From Actinopolyspora lacussalsi subsp. righensis (GTDB taxonomy: Bacteria; Actinomycetota; Actinomycetes; Mycobacteriales; Pseudonocardiaceae): 64,000 nt of DNA. The notes under the pieces were generated by a model that did not search any database, was not told where the DNA came from, and was given only the letters and a program-made list of their open reading frames with translations. Shown one piece after another: positions 8,248-42,793 of this stretch. Position 1 is the stretch's first letter; every line of letters begins with the position of its first letter. The stretch is from assembly GCF_900116555.1 (NCBI RefSeq), contig NZ_FPAT01000007.1, positions 186,001 through 250,000 on the forward strand. Direction: 5' to 3'. A program made the position numbers and the translations under genes.

Positions 8248-8335
8248 GTCGGGTCGGCGGAACCTGCCGCGGCCTATCGCTCCGGCAGGACCGACGTCGA
8301 GCGAGTACTACACCACGTCGGTCCTTTCCGGCGAG
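8248..8335 (-). repeat. Dispersed extragenic element, copy 1 (full length)
   Basis: On the minus strand this reads as a hairpin followed by a conserved tail. The arms are at 8287-8297 and 8315-8325 (11-bp perfect inverted repeat, 17-base loop containing GTAGTAC). The tail ends in GGTTCCGCC near 8254-8262. The same layout occurs at 41793-41882 on the plus strand. It lies in the gap between the DUF4291 gene and the GntP gene. Confidence 0.65.
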
Positions 8336-8471
8336 TCGTTTCTCTCCCACGAGAACCGGGTCCGGCCCTGGTTCGTCCGGTTCGCGCCGGATTTCTCGTG
8401 GTGCACCGACCCCGGTGCACCACGCCCCGACGAATCGATCGGCCGCGCCGTCCGGTGAGCCCGGACCGGGA

Positions 8472-9869
8472 TCAGGCGAACGCGCTGATGAGCAGCACCA
8501 GGAGGAAACCGGTGCCGCCGACCAGCGTGGCCATCACGGTCCACGTCTTGAGCGTGGTGCTCACATCGAGGCCGAGGAAACGTCCCACCAGCCAGAACCC
8601 CGAGTCGTTGACGTGCGACAGCACCATCGATCCGCACGCGATCGCCAGCACGAGCAGCGCCAGGTACAGCGCGGAGAGCCCCTCGACAGCCGCGACCGTC
8701 GGCGCGAGAAGCCCGGCGGTGGTGGTCAGCGCCACCGTGGCCGAACCCTGTGCCACGCGCAGCCCGGTCGCGATCACGAACGCGGCCACTATCAGCGGGA
8801 ATCCGGCCGCGTTGAGCGTTTCGGCGAGCGCGTCGCCGATTCCGCTGGCCTGGAGCACGCTTCCGAACATCCCACCGGCGCCGGTGATGAGGATGATCGC
8901 GCACACCGGCCCGAGCGCTCCGTTGACGATCCGCTCCACGTTCGTCCGGGATCGTCCGCGTCCGAACACGACGATGCTGACGATCGCGGTGGTCAACAGC
9001 GCGATCGGTGTCTCCCCGAGCAGCAGCAGCGGACGCGCCCACGCCGCGTCCGAGTCGACCGCTCCCACCGTTCGAAGTGTCTCCAGCCCAGTGTGCAGGA
9101 AGATCATCACCAGCGGCAGCAGCAGTACCGCGAGGACGGTGCCGAACCGGGGGAGCGGAGCGGCCTCCTCCGAACCCGCCGTGTCCTGGTCCACTTCGGA
9201 TGAAGCGCCCAGCACCGGCACCGGCACGTCGATACGGGGACCGATGAACTTGGAGAAGACGTACGAGCCCACGTACCAGGACGGCACGGCCACGAGCAGA
9301 CCGAGCAGCAGCACGAGGCCGACGTCGGCTCCGAGGAGCTCGGAAGCCGCCACCGGGCCGGGGTGTGGTGGGACCAGGGCGTGCATCGCCAGGAAACCCC
9401 CGGCCGTGGGGAGGGCGTACAGCAGCAACGAGCCGCCGAACCGTCGCGCCACGCTGAATACGATCGGGAGGAGCACCACGAAGGCGGCGTCGAAGAAGAT
9501 GGGGAAACCGAACAGCAGGGAGGCGAACCCCAGAGCGAGCGGAGCCCGTCGCGGGCCGAACCGGTTGATCAACGTGTCGGCCAGGACCCGTGCACCGCCG
9601 CTGATCTCCAGCAGTCGCCCGATCATGGCTCCCAGGCCGACCAGCAGCCCCACGTTCGCCAGCGTGTCGCCGAATCCGGTGAGCAGCGTGTCCACCAGTT
9701 CGTCGAAAGGTATCCGTGTCGCCAGCCCGACGAGCAGACTGACCAGCACCAACGAGATGAAGGCGTGCAGTTTGAACCGCACGATCAGTAACAGCAGCAG
9801 GGCCACCGCGGCGACCGCTATCGCCAGCAGCGGGATGATTCCGTAGACGGGCTCCGTCGTCGTTTCCAC
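8472..9869 (-). CDS. GntP family permease, probable pentonate/gluconate:H+ symporter
   Basis: The product is 465 residues with 12 or more hydrophobic segments, an integral membrane carrier. GTG 9869 was chosen because GAGGAG lies just upstream; the open frame extends to 10073 without protein-like sequence. Family features include FPIFFDAAFVVLLPI and HALVPPHPGPVAASELLGAD in the first half and VNDSGFWLVGRFLG near the end, as in gluconate permeases. It is the last gene of the operon encoding the pentonate enzymes, so the substrate is more likely a sugar acid such as xylonate or arabinonate than gluconate. This is inference from context. Confidence 0.88.
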   Translation of the reverse strand: METTTEPVYGIIPLLAIAVAAVALLLLLIVRFKLHAFISLVLVSLLVGLATRIPFDELVDTLLTGFGDTLANVGLLVGLGAMIGRLLEISGGARVLADTLINRFGPRRAPLALGFASLLFGFPIFFDAAFVVLLPIVFSVARRFGGSLLLYALPTAGGFLAMHALVPPHPGPVAASELLGADVGLVLLLGLLVAVPSWYVGSYVFSKFIGPRIDVPVPVLGASSEVDQDTAGSEEAAPLPRFGTVLAVLLLPLVMIFLHTGLETLRTVGAVDSDAAWARPLLLLGETPIALLTTAIVSIVVFGRGRSRTNVERIVNGALGPVCAIILITGAGGMFGSVLQASGIGDALAETLNAAGFPLIVAAFVIATGLRVAQGSATVALTTTAGLLAPTVAAVEGLSALYLALLVLAIACGSMVLSHVNDSGFWLVGRFLGLDVSTTLKTWTVMATLVGGTGFLLVLLISAFA

Positions 9870-32875: not shown

Positions 32876-33649
32876 ATGGACGTCAACGCTGACCTGGCCG
32901 AGGGGTTCGGGCGCTGGGAACTGGGCGACGACACCGCGCTGCTGGACATCGTCAGCAGCGCCAACGTCGCCTGCGGGTTCCACGCGGGTGATCCGAGGAC
33001 GCTGCGCGCGGCCTGCTCCGGAGCGGCGATGCGCGGGGTCGCCGTGGGGGCCCAGGTCGGTTACCGGGACCTGGCCGGATTCGGCCGCCGGTTCATCGAC
33101 ATGGACCCGGCCGAACTCGTGGACGAGGTGATCTACCAGATCGGCGCGCTCGACGCGCTGGCCAGGGTGGCGGGCACCGCGGTCACCTACGTCAAGCCGC
33201 ACGGCGCGCTGTACAACACCATCGTCTCGCACACCGAGCAGGCCGAGGCCGTGGTGGAAGCGGTGCGCCGGTTCCGTCCCGGCATGGCCGTGCTGGGCCT
33301 GGCCGGTTCGGAGTGGTTGCGGCTGGCGGGGGAGTCGGGGTTGAAGCCCCATCGGGAGGCGTTCGCCGATCGCGCCTATACCCCGGAGGGAACCCTCGTG
33401 CCGCGTGGTCGTCCCGGCGCGGTGCTGCACGACCCCGAGGCGATAGCCGACCGCTGCCTGCGGATCGTCCGGGGGCAACCGATCGAGGCGGCGGACGGGA
33501 CCCCGCTGTCGCTGTCGCCGGACTCGATCTGCGTGCACGGCGACACCCCCGACGCGGTGGGGATCGCCCGCACCGTGCGGCGGAAACTGACCGAGCAGGG
33601 GACGTCGATCGAGCCGTTCGCCCCGCCGCCCGCACTCGTGGCGGACTGA
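32876..33649 (+). CDS. pxpA: 5-oxoprolinase subunit PxpA (LamB/YcsF family)
   Basis: The product is 257 residues and, with PxpB and PxpC, hydrolyses 5-oxoproline to glutamate with ATP. The family signature MDVNADLAEGFGRWELGDD opens the protein, followed by SSANVACGFHAGDPRTL, GAQVGYRDLAGFGRR, TYVKPHGALYN and FADRAYTPEGTLVPR. ATG 32876 has GAGAGG upstream. The order A-B-C is the common bacterial one. The 115-base gap to pxpB contains a partial copy of the dispersed repeat. Confidence 0.93.
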   Translation: MDVNADLAEGFGRWELGDDTALLDIVSSANVACGFHAGDPRTLRAACSGAAMRGVAVGAQVGYRDLAGFGRRFIDMDPAELVDEVIYQIGALDALARVAGTAVTYVKPHGALYNTIVSHTEQAEAVVEAVRRFRPGMAVLGLAGSEWLRLAGESGLKPHREAFADRAYTPEGTLVPRGRPGAVLHDPEAIADRCLRIVRGQPIEAADGTPLSLSPDSICVHGDTPDAVGIARTVRRKLTEQGTSIEPFAPPPALVAD

Positions 33650-33662
33650 GAACCGTTTTCCG

Positions 33663-33723
33663 GTGTTCCTCCTCGATGTCGGTCCTCCCGGAGCGAGAGC
33701 CAGCGGGAGGTTCCGCCAAGCGA
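33663..33723 (+). repeat. Dispersed extragenic element, partial copy
   Basis: From CTCGATGTCGG at 33672 through GCGAGAGCC to GGGAGGTTCCGCCAAGCGA at 33723 this matches the right half of the full element at 41793-41882. The left hairpin arm is missing. It lies between pxpA and pxpB. Confidence 0.6.
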
Positions 33724-38876: not shown

Positions 38877-40778
38877 ATGGCCGAGATCGAGAGTCACGAC
38901 TACGACGTGATCGTCATCGGGGCGGGCGGTGCCGGCCTGCGTGCCGCCATCGAGGCCCGCTCGCGCGGACTGCGCACGGCGGTGCTGTGCAAGTCGCTGT
39001 TCGGCAAGGCGCACACCGTCATGGCCGAGGGCGGTATCGCCGCCGCGATGGGCAACGTCAACTCGGGGGACAACTGGCAGGTGCACTTCCGCGACACCAT
39101 GCGCGGCGGCAAGTTCCTGAACAACTGGCGCATGGCCGAGCTGCACGCCACCGAGGCCCCGCAGCGCGTCTGGGAGCTGGAGACCTACGGCGCACTGTTC
39201 GACCGCACCGCCGACGGTCGGATCAGCCAGCGCAACTTCGGCGGGCACGAGTACCCCAGGCTCGCGCACGTGGGTGACCGCACCGGACTGGAACTGATCC
39301 GCACGCTGCAGCAGCAGGTGGTCTCGCTGCAGCAGTCCGACCACGCCGAGCACGGCGACTACGAGGCCGGGCTGCGGATCTTCGCCGAGTTCACGGTGAC
39401 CGACCTGCTGCTGGACGGGGACCGCATCGCCGGGACGCTCGGGTACTGGCGGGAGAACGGTCGGTTCGTGCGGCTGCGGGCACCAGCGGTGGTGCTGGCG
39501 ACCGGTGGGATCGGCAAGTCCTTCAAAGTGACCTCCAACTCCTGGGAGTACACCGGCGACGGGCACGCCCTCGCGCTGCGGGCGGGCGCCCGGCTGATCA
39601 ACATGGAGTTCGTGCAGTTCCACCCCACCGGCATGGTCTGGCCGCCCAGCGTGAAGGGGATCCTGGTCACCGAATCCGTGCGCGGTGACGGTGGTGTGCT
39701 GCGCGACGCCTCGGGAAGACGCTTCATGTTCGACTACATTCCCGAGGTCTTCAAGGAGTCCTACGCGGACAGCCCGGAGGAGGCCGACCGGTGGTACTCC
39801 GATCCGGACAACAACCGCAGGCCACCGGAACTGCTGCCGCGCGACGAAGTGGCACGCGCGATCAACAACGAGGTCAAGGAGGGCAGGGGAACCCCGCACG
39901 GTGGGGTCTACCTCGACGTGGCCAGCAGGCTCTCCGCCGAGGAGATCATGCGCAGGCTGCCCTCGATGCACCACCAGTTCAAGGAACTGGCCGATGTGGA
40001 CATCACCAGTGAGCGCATGGAGGTCGGGCCGACCTGCCACTACGTGATGGGTGGTGTGGAGGTCGACCCCGACACCGCGGCCTCCTCGGTGCCCGGGCTG
40101 TTCGCCGCGGGGGAGGTGGCGGGCGGTATGCACGGTTCCAACCGGCTCGGGGGCAACTCGCTCTCCGACCTGCTGGTCTTCGGCAGGCGGGCCGGAGCGG
40201 GCGCCGCCGAGCACGTCGCCGCCGCGCGGCACGCCCGCCCCGACGTCTCGGAGGAGGTGGTGACCGAGGCGGTGAACTCCGCACTCGCCCCGTTCGAGGT
40301 CACCGACGTGCGGGGCCAGGAGAACCCCTACTCGTTGCAGGCGGAGCTGCAGCAGGTGATGAACCGGCTGGTCGGGATCATCCGGGACGGGGCCGAGATG
40401 TGTGCCGCGTTGGAACAGCTCGCCGAGATCAAACAGCGTGCCGTCCGGCTGGCCGTTCCGGAGGGCAACCGCCACTTCAACCCCGGCTGGCACCTGGCGC
40501 TGGACCTGCGCAACATGTTGGTCGTCAGCGAGTGCGTGGCTGCGGCGGCGCTGCGCCGCACCGAGAGCAGGGGCGGGCACACTCGCGACGACCACCCGGG
40601 CATGAACTCGAAGTGGCGCGGCACGCTGCTCGGCTGCGAGCTGCGGGACGGTTCGATCGAGATCACCGAGCACGAGCAGCCGCCGATGCGGGAGGACCTG
40701 TTGCGGCTGTTCTCCGTGGCGGAGCTGGGCAAGTACTTCACCGAGGAGGAGCTGGCCATCGTAAGAACGCCTTCTTAG
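38877..40778 (+). CDS. sdhA: Succinate dehydrogenase/fumarate reductase flavoprotein subunit
   Basis: The product is 633 residues. The dinucleotide motif YDVIVIGAGGAGLRAAIEA is at about 10-28. The covalent-FAD His lies in GKAHTVMAEGGIAAAMG. Catalytic regions are MEFVQFHPTGM, RGDGGVLRDASGRRFMFDY and RLGGNSLSDLLVFGRRAG. ATG 38877 has a spaced purine tract upstream. It oxidises succinate to fumarate (or the reverse) together with the neighbouring anchor and Fe-S subunits, linking the TCA cycle to the membrane quinone pool. Confidence 0.93.
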   Translation: MAEIESHDYDVIVIGAGGAGLRAAIEARSRGLRTAVLCKSLFGKAHTVMAEGGIAAAMGNVNSGDNWQVHFRDTMRGGKFLNNWRMAELHATEAPQRVWELETYGALFDRTADGRISQRNFGGHEYPRLAHVGDRTGLELIRTLQQQVVSLQQSDHAEHGDYEAGLRIFAEFTVTDLLLDGDRIAGTLGYWRENGRFVRLRAPAVVLATGGIGKSFKVTSNSWEYTGDGHALALRAGARLINMEFVQFHPTGMVWPPSVKGILVTESVRGDGGVLRDASGRRFMFDYIPEVFKESYADSPEEADRWYSDPDNNRRPPELLPRDEVARAINNEVKEGRGTPHGGVYLDVASRLSAEEIMRRLPSMHHQFKELADVDITSERMEVGPTCHYVMGGVEVDPDTAASSVPGLFAAGEVAGGMHGSNRLGGNSLSDLLVFGRRAGAGAAEHVAAARHARPDVSEEVVTEAVNSALAPFEVTDVRGQENPYSLQAELQQVMNRLVGIIRDGAEMCAALEQLAEIKQRAVRLAVPEGNRHFNPGWHLALDLRNMLVVSECVAAAALRRTESRGGHTRDDHPGMNSKWRGTLLGCELRDGSIEITEHEQPPMREDLLRLFSVAELGKYFTEEELAIVRTPS

Positions 40779-40808: not shown

Positions 40809-40850
40809 TGGCGGAACCTCTCGCACGGTTCTCGTCCCGGTCCGAGCATG
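40809..40850 (-). repeat. Dispersed extragenic element, partial copy
   Basis: On the minus strand GACGAGAACCGTGCGAGAGGTTCCGCCAC ends this copy; the 17 bases GCGAGAGGTTCCGCCAC match the copy at 41793-41882 exactly. The hairpin half is diverged. It lies between the flavoprotein and Fe-S genes. Confidence 0.55.
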
Positions 40851-40896
40851 CTGCGAGTGCGGGCTTTCGGTGAGCGTCGTGGAAGGGACTGTGGAA

Positions 40897-41655
40897 ATGG
40901 GATACCGGGCGCGACTGCGCGTGTGGCGCGGTGACGCCGATTCCGGCGAGCTGCGGGACTACGAGGTCGACGCGGAGGAAGGCGAGGTGGTGCTCGACCT
41001 GCTGCACCGACTACAGGCCACCCAGTGTGCGGACCTGGCGGTGCGCTGGAACTGCAAGGCGGGCAAGTGCGGTTCCTGCTCGGCCGAGGTCAACGGCAGG
41101 CCGCGGTTGACCTGCATGACCAGGCTGTCGCTGTTCGACACCGACGAGACCATAACGGTCACCCCGATGCGGGCCTTTCCGGTGATCAAGGATCTCGTCT
41201 GTGACGTCTCGTACAACTACGTCAAGGCACGCGAGGTGCCCGCCTTCAGCCCACCCGAGGGGTTGGAGCCGGGGGAGTACCGGATGCAACAGCGGGACGT
41301 GGAGCGTTCCCAGGAGTTCCGCAAGTGCATCGAGTGCTTCCTGTGCCAGGACACCTGCCACGTGATCCGCGATCACTCGGAGAACAAGGAGGCGTTCTCG
41401 GGGCCGAGGTTCCTGATGCGGGTCGCCGAGCTGGAGATGCACCCGCTGGACTCGCACCAGGAGAAGGGCGGCGACCGCCCGGAGGAGGCGAGGGGCGACC
41501 ACGGGCTCGGGCTCTGCAACATCACCAAGTGCTGCACCGAAGTGTGCCCGGAGCACATCGGGATCACCGACAACGCGCTCATCCCGCTCAAGGAACGCCT
41601 GGCCGACCGGAGGTACGACCCGCTGACCATGCTGTTCCGGCGTAAGAACCGCTAG
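40897..41655 (+). CDS. sdhB: Succinate dehydrogenase/fumarate reductase iron-sulfur subunit
   Basis: The product is 252 residues from ATG 40897; GTG 40870 is an in-frame alternative with a weaker ribosome site. The [2Fe-2S] site is WNCKAGKCGSCSAEVNG with a later LTC (about residues 50-75). The [4Fe-4S]/[3Fe-4S] ligands are in CIECFLCQDTCHV and CNITKCCTEVCPEH. It transfers electrons from the flavoprotein to the anchor and quinone. The C-terminal spacer is rich in charged residues. Confidence 0.93.
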   Translation: MGYRARLRVWRGDADSGELRDYEVDAEEGEVVLDLLHRLQATQCADLAVRWNCKAGKCGSCSAEVNGRPRLTCMTRLSLFDTDETITVTPMRAFPVIKDLVCDVSYNYVKAREVPAFSPPEGLEPGEYRMQQRDVERSQEFRKCIECFLCQDTCHVIRDHSENKEAFSGPRFLMRVAELEMHPLDSHQEKGGDRPEEARGDHGLGLCNITKCCTEVCPEHIGITDNALIPLKERLADRRYDPLTMLFRRKNR

Positions 41656-41702
41656 CCCGGTGTTTTGCGTTGTACGGTGGTCCCGCCCGCCTGCGTAGCT
41701 GG

Positions 41703-41717
41703 TCGCTTGGCGGAACC
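41703..41717 (-). repeat. Dispersed extragenic element, short fragment
   Basis: The minus strand reads GGTTCCGCCAAGCGA, identical over 15 bases to the end of the partial copy at 33709-33723. It lies about 85 bases before the full copy at 41793. Confidence 0.45.
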
Positions 41718-41792
41718 GCCGGGTCGCTTCGGTGCAGGGCGCACCCCGACCACCCTCGCAGCCGGCACCGCCGCGGGTTCTCCCGTGTGGCT

Positions 41793-41882
41793 CTCGTGAG
41801 GAAGGCCCGACGTGGCGTAGTACCTACTCGATGTCGGGCCTCGCCGCAGCGAGAGCCGCGCGAGAGGTTCCGCCACCCGACC
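41793..41882 (+). repeat. Dispersed extragenic element, full copy
   Basis: Hairpin arms AGGCCCGACGT (41803-41813) and ATGTCGGGCCT (41831-41841) enclose a 17-base loop with GTAGTAC. The conserved right half follows: GCAGCGAGAGCCGCG and GAGAGGTTCCGCCACCCGACC. The element aligns over about 88 bases with the minus strand of 8248-8335. It fills the gap between the Fe-S gene and the convergent SDR. Confidence 0.65.
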
Positions 41883-41914
41883 CCTACGACGAGTGGACAC
41901 GTCCTGTCGGTTCA

Positions 41915-42793
41915 TCACTTCCGCTGGAGTTTGTCGTTGCGGGAGCTGAAACCCCGTCCCAACTCGGCGACCTCCGCCTCCATCTGCGGCAGCAGCTTCC
42001 GCACCATCGGCAACATCAGCCGTTCCACCAGCCGCGAGGAGGGCAGGTTCCGCAACCAGTGCATCAGCATGACCGACCTGGGAACGTAGACGCGCCTGGC
42101 GCGGCGTTCCATGCCCGCCACGAGTGCCCGGGAGCAGTCGGCGACGTTGGTGGTCGAATGCATCGGCCAGGGCAGTTTCGCCCGCATGGCGCGGAAACTC
42201 GGCAGATCCGTCGAGGCATCGCGAACCAGGTCCGTGTCGATCCAGGAGGGATGCGCGCTTCCCACGGCGACTCCCAGGTGACCGACTTCGGAGCTCAGGG
42301 CGCTGGCCAGTGCCTCGGAACCGGCCTTGCTCGCGGTGTAGGCGGCCATGCCGCCGATCGGGGCGAACGCCGACAGCGAGGAGACCACCAGCAGGTACCC
42401 CCGCCGTTCCACCAGGTGGGGTAAGGCCGCACGAGCGGTGTGGAACACCCCGTTGAGGTTCACATCCACCGTCTTGGTGAACGCCCGGGGATCGTGGTCG
42501 CGCACGGTCCCGAAGGGAGCCACACCCGCGTTGGCCATGACCACGTCGATGCCGCCCAGCTGTCGTGCGCTCTCGTCGATGGCCGTCTTGATCGACTCGG
42601 GGTCGGTGACGTCGGCCTCGAACCACGGGTGGCCGGTGCCGAGCTCGTCGGCCACCGAAGCCAGCTCGTCGGGTTCCAGTCCGATCAGGGCCACTCGCGC
42701 CCCCTTGCGAACCAGATCCCGTGCGGTCTGAGCACCGATGCCACGTGCGGCACCCGTGATGGCGACTGCTTTGCCCGACATCGACATGGGCAT
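41915..42793 (-). CDS. SDR family oxidoreductase with long C-terminal extension
   Basis: The product is 292 residues from ATG 42793, with AGGGAGG just upstream; the frame continues further but as low-complexity sequence. The cofactor motif is TGAARGIGAQTA, then NAGVAPFG, a Ser in VVSSLSAFAP and Y-x3-K in AAYTASKAG. The last 50 residues (LPSSRLVERLMLPMVRKLLPQMEAEVAELG) add a basic amphipathic helix, as in SDRs that associate with membranes or lipid substrates. It is divergent from a small membrane gene and has a dyad operator in its promoter. Confidence 0.85.
   Translation of the reverse strand: MPMSMSGKAVAITGAARGIGAQTARDLVRKGARVALIGLEPDELASVADELGTGHPWFEADVTDPESIKTAIDESARQLGGIDVVMANAGVAPFGTVRDHDPRAFTKTVDVNLNGVFHTARAALPHLVERRGYLLVVSSLSAFAPIGGMAAYTASKAGSEALASALSSEVGHLGVAVGSAHPSWIDTDLVRDASTDLPSFRAMRAKLPWPMHSTTNVADCSRALVAGMERRARRVYVPRSVMLMHWLRNLPSSRLVERLMLPMVRKLLPQMEAEVAELGRGFSSRNDKLQRK

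Follow-up and report, generated by a model that had tools for sequence, protein, structure and literature searches.

We describe a long hairpin that recurs in the window, the 64-kb stretch of an Actinopolyspora genome analysed here, and that we read as a dispersed family of hairpins, not described before, which are probably mobile and non-autonomous, settle at the 3' ends of genes and are kept according to their orientation; we give this reading a probability of a little under one half (about 0.48). As far as our searches show, the element is new as a family, and it is real, abundant, structured and spread over a bacterial family. Searches of open-licence PMC papers for repeats in Actinopolyspora, MITEs of actinobacteria, REPs close to stop codons and RNAs of Pseudonocardiaceae gave nothing recognisable as this element.

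All five occurrences given in a preliminary description of the window are present in the sequence, two of them full-length. The first full copy (41765-41877, plus strand; hairpin arms about 41773-41873) scored 117 bits with our covariance model (CM; E value 1.5e-24; training sequence L018) and lies between two convergent genes, named by Pfam, sdhB (stop at 41655, plus strand) and an SDR-family gene (stop at about 41915, minus strand), with its right end 40 nt from the TGA of the latter, counted from GGCGGAACC. The spacer that leads from this copy to the facing stop codon occupies 41878-41912 on the plus strand, as judged from the information content of 62 copies in the window's genome (22 contigs, 4.92 Mb), and the inner ~30 nt of such a spacer is, in other copies, a weakly conserved head that forms part of the element. 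The second full copy is diverged (8253-8367, minus strand; 51.5 bits, E value 7.7e-9) and, by gene call and Pfam, has as neighbours a gntP-type permease gene, which ends at 8472, and a gene for a DUF4291 protein, each on the minus strand; the right end of the copy points at the start of the latter gene (about 8224), which makes the copy an exception to the stop-codon rule set out below. Both full copies were among the 20 training sequences of the CM, so their scores are partly a matter of construction and independent support comes from copies elsewhere.

The three partial copies, at 33663, 40809 and 41692, were not reported by the CM at an E value of 0.1. A right-half copy broken near the apex occupies 33663-33717 (plus strand), its tail at 33693-33717 being an exact pattern match (C3:219693-219717 of the window's genome); it lies between a LamB/YcsF gene (stop at 33649) and a carboxyltransferase-domain gene, both on the plus strand by Pfam, and is a further exception to the rule, with no facing stop. 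The outer part of the right half is all that remains at 40809-40852 (minus strand), between sdhA (stop at 40778) and sdhB by reading of the sequence and Pfam, where GGCGGAACC (40810-40818) begins 31 nt behind the sdhA stop. Finally, 41692-41717 (minus strand), 53 nt behind the sdhB stop, carries only the outer head TGCGTAGCTGGTCGCTT and GGCGGAACC when compared by eye with the head consensus, and is the remnant of another copy.

The GC content of the window is 0.66-0.70, and a loose scan for stems was uninformative in such GC-rich sequence, returning many weak stems; both suit an explanation by chance similarity or low complexity. That explanation is refuted, however, and we consider it close to impossible. 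The window contains 7 occurrences of the motif GGTTCCGCC where 1.88 are expected on average, a count reached in 0 of 100 shuffles, the exact right-half pattern has 126 matches in the window's genome while the reversed pattern has 0, CM E values in genomes of the genus go down to 4.0e-28, and the fold survives the shuffle and slide controls given below. The preliminary description was thus correct in calling the occurrences more frequent than chance allows, and many copies genome-wide, which it had named as support for a mobile or structured element, were found.

The aligned full copies form one interrupted hairpin of ~101-113 nt with an apex of 3-4 nt. In the orientation of the preliminary description, used throughout, the consensus reads GCGGGTTCTC.CGTGCGGCTCTCGC GAGGA(A/C)GG CCCGACGTTGTGTAG n3-4 CTACCCGATGTCGGG(C/G)C TCCCGCA GCGAGAGCCGTGCGAGAGGTTCCGC. 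The element had been described as ~90 bp long, with an 11-bp stem, a 17-base loop and then a right half. It is larger than that, the copy placed at 8248-8335 continuing to about 8367; the described stem and loop make up only the top of an interrupted stem that extends further; and the right half pairs with a left half, which both full copies possess. Since the aligned copies make a single long hairpin, the 17-base loop contains further pairs, and the apex GTAG-n3/4-CTAC is itself paired. Six individual stretches of ~160 nt from the window's genome folded at -71 to -91 kcal/mol. Conservation in that genome extends ~30 nt beyond the GGTTCCGCC end (62 copies) and, on the other side, ~44 nt from the anchor GAGAACCC (39 copies); the unit is a ~30-nt head, a ~105-nt hairpin and a ~35-nt tail. 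By eye, related direct-repeat modules, TGCGnGGGTGGTCGG, stand on both sides. The far side of full copies also bears a ~24-bp tandem module, TGCGGGAGTGGTGGGAGTTCGGCC, in one to several repeats, related to the gene-side head.

We aligned 65 copies from twelve genera with MAFFT and derived a structure of 34 pairs with RNAalifold. Changes on both sides, the covariation that the preliminary description had proposed to look for, were found in 23 of the 34 stem pairs. Paired cells made up 95.2% against 77.8% after shuffling, and the covariation score was 0.419 against 0.122 for shuffled and at most 0.103 for slid versions of the alignment, the latter being the better control as related sequences can exceed shuffles; the absolute values lean towards the fold because the copies were picked with a model of it. 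The apex stem GTAG/CTAC is replaced in other genera, with compensation, by GACC/GGTC, GAAT/ATTC or GTAT/ATAC, and a number of unpaired columns hardly vary.

The strength of this covariation and the conservation of unpaired bases also fit a close rival, a host RNA element of gene 3' ends that would act as a bidirectional terminator or insulator, or as a stabiliser, behind stop codons, mainly between convergent genes, and block antisense and head-on transcription. We regard this as possible, at something under one chance in three. It draws further support from the minority wobbles at the genus level, where G.T cases outnumber A.C cases by 53 to 16, as would fit an RNA read towards the stop codon, an excess that may partly reflect the selection of copies by a model that scores G.U pairs. 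The same strand folds better in 60 of the 65 copies with RNA parameters and in 59 of 65 with DNA parameters; against the host RNA, this best-folding RNA is antisense to the gene with the fixed spacing. Recent changes within the genus, counted by eye, look about equally G.T and A.C; they give no sign that the fold of one strand is at present selected within the genus, and the strand asymmetry rests on the comparison between genera. Also against a host terminator, no U-tract or T-run was seen behind either arm in 20-30 copies of the window's genome inspected by eye, which departs from the canonical intrinsic terminator. Searches against Rfam 15 gave nothing above the gathering score in the window and only a tRNA at seven loci; the best weak match in 41640-41930 was mir-8830 (E value 0.33), far below the gathering score.

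The element is abundant across the genus. Full-length CM matches numbered 127 in the complete genome of the window's species (G041). Within the genus, nine of ten genomes had 127-143 CM matches each, from 150 scored candidates per genome, and a palindrome may have been counted on both of its strands. The tenth genome (G006) had 3 CM matches at E ≤ 0.001, amounting to 2 distinct copies, and none in 400 kb, against 28 full and partial copies in 358 kb of the window's genome; this near absence from one species of the genus counts against a host RNA element. One of its two copies (L137 1379-1614) has arms that are largely rewritten yet still pair, and lies beside a family-B-like hairpin.

Beyond single species, CM relatives were found in 15 of 60 family genomes and 12 of 46 genera, the genus of the window included, and the other 45 genomes gave no CM match at an E value of 1e-4. 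The numbers of matches were 108 in G021 and 34 in G020. The exact pattern was not found in 32 sampled genomes of other genera, nor in G006. Among the 80 pattern matches listed in named genomes, 78 were from Actinopolyspora (mzabensis, alba, biskrensis and xinjiangensis) and the other two came from a contig of Aminobacter and an unclassified contig of a MAG. An exact right-half match is present on MAG contig CALAKE010000022.1 (L089), from an uncultured bacterium. Variants are lineage-specific: by eye, one 25-mer makes up 39 of 45 matches in genome G001 and 7 among the 100 matches listed of 126 in the window's genome. The genes that the element faces are mostly unshared between genera, another point against the host RNA; in other genera, 4 of 58 facing genes had a counterpart more than 70% identical among 86 facing-gene families of Actinopolyspora.

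The element keeps a regular position relative to stop codons in this analysis of gene context, for which genes were called with a codon-usage script rather than taken from annotation. Among full copies in the window's genome, 31 of 42 had the facing stop 25-47 nt from the right (GGTTCCGCC) end, and the same was found in 13 of 21 copies in alba, 19 of 25 in mzabensis, 7 of 9 in biskrensis and 10 of 16 in xinjiangensis, compared with 6.5-9.6% when copies were placed at random in the same gaps; the five sets share orthologous sites, and they exclude duplicates with the same context, one copy that lies inside a gene and 8 copies at the edges of contigs. On the far side of full copies, which served as a control, 1 of 31 stops fell at 25-47 nt in the window's genome, and the four further species had no such case. 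Half copies keep the spacing in part (11 of 23 in the window's genome, 6 of 8 in alba, 3 of 3 in mzabensis, 2 of 4 in biskrensis and 3 of 5 in xinjiangensis). The mode is 37 nt, shared by 29 of 138 distinct spacers (115 of them from full copies). In other genera, represented mostly by their best-scoring copies, 49 of 77 near sides and 5 of 77 far sides were in register, one G013 copy probably being counted twice. Full copies lay between convergent genes in 40 of 64 cases, orthologous sites of several genomes included, against a background of 169 convergent gaps among 811 of at least 100 bp.

The near-fixed ~37-nt spacing in many genera and the convergent location speak for the host RNA element. 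The register likewise counts against a mobile element, which has no obvious way to measure from a stop codon, and selection for a host function would explain it more directly. We considered other sources of the spacing. The element does not itself supply the stop codon, as the 138 stops comprise 85 TGA, 39 TAG and 14 TAA and the distances are spread. Native 3' hairpins sharing the 37-nt place found no support: the stems of genes without the element start broadly, the commonest place being within 10 nt of the stop (28 of 103 in G006 and 24 of 106 in the window's genome), with 9 and 10, respectively, starting at 30-39 nt. The 37-nt peak is therefore a property of the element. Displacement of native terminators is also unsupported, since a strong 3' stem was present within the 100 nt searched in 12 of 19 orthologues in G006 that lack the element, a share only slightly higher than in the background (103 of 188, with up to 160 nt searched). 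Upstream of many full copies (for example L003, L013, L027 and L028) we saw a small palindrome, GTCGATTTCTCGCGAAATCGCC, that recurs, sometimes more than once per gap, and also in alignments of the C7 segment, in the same intergenic spaces as the element.

The orientation of the element follows replication. With dnaA placed at 3.594 Mb in G041 and close to coordinate 1 in both G020 and G021, the gene-side orientation of full copies was co-directional with the fork in 89 of 127 copies in G041, 81 of 103 in G021 (103 matches listed of 108) and 32 of 34 in G020 (one-sided p values of 3.5e-6, 2e-9 and 3.5e-8 against 50%, and 0.003, 8e-6 and 3e-6 against a gene bias of 58%). Among the 40 best G041 matches with the origin unplaced, the bias was unclear, at 27 of 40 for the best split. 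In 20 fetched stretches of G020, chosen around 20 of its 34 matches, all 13 of 13 convergent copies faced the co-directional gene, co-directional genes there numbering 207 of 356; a convergent pair offers one gene per strand, so gene bias alone cannot give 13 of 13. In a 295-kb segment of G041, 7 of 9 convergent copies faced the co-directional gene, with 134 of 234 genes co-directional. One full copy in G041 (C1:3594858-3594967) lies just behind dnaA, whose domain is at 3593795-3594280.

Copies without a full-length match behave differently from full ones. In G041, 16 of 39 of them were co-oriented, against 89 of 127 full copies (Fisher p = 0.002), where the 39 combine 13 of 28 from the pattern list (the first 100 listed of 124), classed by the absence of a CM match at an E value of 1e-12 rather than by reading, with 3 of 11 from the fetched segment. 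Stricter non-full sets gave 14 of 35 (p = 0.0015) and, for the pattern list alone, 13 of 28 (p = 0.026); one copy grouped as non-full, at 4914661, covers model positions 7-107, and dropping it leaves 16 of 38 (p = 0.002). All G041 copies together were co-oriented in 105 of 166 cases (p = 0.10 against the 58% gene bias). As this is close to the gene bias, it is the split between full and non-full copies that carries the signal of orientation in this species, and survival is favoured over a bias at insertion.

A protein-bound DNA signal for chromosome organisation or replication, oriented from origin to terminus, would account for the shared orientation in three genomes and for the conserved unpaired bases. 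It would also fit the density of copies, which falls to about zero at the terminus in G041 (19, 24, 19, 16, 22, 12, 4, 9, 1, 1 and 0 copies per successive 250 kb from dnaA) and in G021. The thinning is less clear in G020, however, where copies persist near the terminus; only 70% of full copies are oriented in the window's species, with all copies together near the gene bias; G006 nearly lacks the element; and a near-fixed register to stop codons is unexpected for signals of this kind. We consider such a signal improbable.

Many copies retain only the GGTTCCGCC, gene-side half, and those that we read are mostly broken near the apex. In syntenic segments, 9 of 14 non-full copies in the window's genome, 6 of 10 in G041 and 8 of 12 in G007 started at model positions 45-64, around the apex. 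In the segments of five genomes that carry copies, every match reached model position 107 or beyond, and the other half was never found alone. The same site can differ between strains: the copy at 374435 is a half in the window's genome and full in G041 and G007, that at 4920378 is a half in G041 and full in the window's genome and G007, and that at 162330 is a half in the window's genome and full in G007. A half copy at 330040 in G007 is absent between the same flanks in the window's genome, G041 and G004, and is the one apparent gain. Such present, half and absent states inside one species count against a host RNA element. The empty-site orthologues that the preliminary description had named as support did not appear: at twelve aligned sites we saw neither a target-site duplication nor a clean full-length insertion, and most of these sites look like deletions or exchanges of the sequence between genes. 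In several places the entire stretch between conserved gene ends differs among strains that are 94-98% identical to the window's genome at one anchor, far in excess of the divergence of the genes.

A second, rarer family of long hairpins with the same GTAG..CTAC apex, GTGAGTCGG...GAGTAGCGACCTACGCGGCGAGCGGCCC...CCGACTCACGCACCGG, was noticed on C7 of the window's genome at about 162120, 331918 and 385498 and at L118 2110-2225, with 6 matches, partial ones included, in 358 kb. At C7 405313-405396, and in the corresponding copies of G041 and G007, halves of the two hairpin families are joined at the apex.

The mobility of the hairpin is supported by the variable copy number, the lineage-specific variants, the one apparent gain and the few shared facing genes (4 of 58); for the reading as a whole we also count the covarying fold, the register to stop codons, the orientation of full copies and its loss in the others, and the strand asymmetry. 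We suggest that the element may be mobilised by an enzyme acting on the folded strand and may land near the foot of a native 3' hairpin. It would settle at 3' ends so that the stop codon is followed after a few nucleotides by the head and after ~37 nt by the hairpin, and, once settled, would probably be the first strong 3'-end hairpin of its gene. In the common orientation, the better-folding strand is the leading-strand template, and in the rare orientation the lagging-strand template, on which long hairpins would be cut; broken halves would then be left, in the rare orientation. A break that removed the gene-side half would be liable to harm the gene, which is only 37 nt away, and this would explain the persistence of that half. 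Orientation would in this way arise through survival.

No mobilising gene was found in a search of the ten genus genomes for the Y1 transposase (PF01797). This domain is present in 8 of the 10; the two genomes without it, G002 and G008, carry 130 and 132 CM matches, respectively, and Y1/RAYT is therefore rejected as a present-day requirement, although a RAYT may have acted in the past.

Comparison with known repeats places the element near several classes. MITEs are short and non-coding, with inverted arms, high copy number and lineage-specific variants, and the element shares all of these, its arms pairing almost end to end as terminal inverted repeats. It differs in its mosaic flanks and in that neither a target-site duplication (twelve sites) nor a parent transposon (Y1_Tnp search only) was seen, which leaves the MITE label unproven. 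The ERIC/IRU of enterobacteria, a ~127-bp intergenic imperfect palindrome for which a transposase is not known, resembles it by description as a long intergenic palindrome of that kind, likewise with no known transposase; we know of no stop-codon register or orientation of this sort for ERIC. MIRUs of mycobacteria (~50-100 bp) are small repeats at stop codons in a related bacterial group, but they are tandem rather than long hairpins. Integron attC sites, imperfect palindromes that follow stop codons, have co-varying arms and work as single strands in folded form. The element resembles them in its place and its covarying arms, but it is dispersed where attC sites are arrayed, and RYYYAAC/GTTRRRY boxes were not seen by eye at its ends.

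REPs are a further published parallel. According to PMC3733652, most of them follow a coding region and, when the genes are convergent, they lie less than 20 bp from both ORFs in two species; according to PMC8266576, they are 20-50 nt long with a tetranucleotide that is most often GTAG; and, according to PMC12306157, E. coli REPs lower translation only within 15 nt of the stop. The element shares with REPs the palindromic form, the high copy number, the location in intergenic gaps, frequently after a 3' end and with the flanking genes convergent or in tandem, and the frequent inverted pairs able to fold together (PMC3733652), and it carries a GTAG motif in the window's genus, all of which would suit a REP or BIME of a RAYT (TnpA-REP) system. 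We nevertheless consider this very unlikely. The hairpin is ~105 nt rather than 20-50 nt (PMC8266576); the unpaired end tag (GTAG or CGTC) of RAYT REPs is lacking, GTAG being paired in the apex stem instead of standing at the hairpin foot and being replaced in other genera; two copy-rich genomes lack the Y1 transposase, to which the element has no link; its orientation is tied to replication; and its ~37-nt register is one-sided, in contrast to the distance of less than 20 bp from both ORFs (two species; PMC3733652). The preliminary description had offered either a REP/MITE-like element or a conserved site for an RNA structure or regulator. It was right as to a dispersed and structured element, given the high copy number, intergenic location, stem covariation and present, half and absent differences between strains; neither label is proven.

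Taken at its fullest, the proposal is of a new class of hairpin in many genera of one actinobacterial family, mobile or once mobile, registered to stop codons and to replication, installed as the 3' end of co-directional genes and serving as a bidirectional transcript barrier, with the folded strand deciding survival; we hold this fuller version as doubtful, at perhaps one chance in four. Why extragenic palindromes sit where they sit is an open question, and the family offers more than 100 natural copies per genome on which to pursue it. Three measurable rules, namely how far the element lies from a stop codon, which way it points relative to the fork and that it breaks close to the apex, make testable both the orientation-dependent removal of hairpins by replication and the passage of a mobile hairpin into a standard gene 3' end. 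The near absence of the element from G006 is a natural control. The broken halves and the chimera of two families at the apex record the cutting and rejoining of hairpins in the chromosome.
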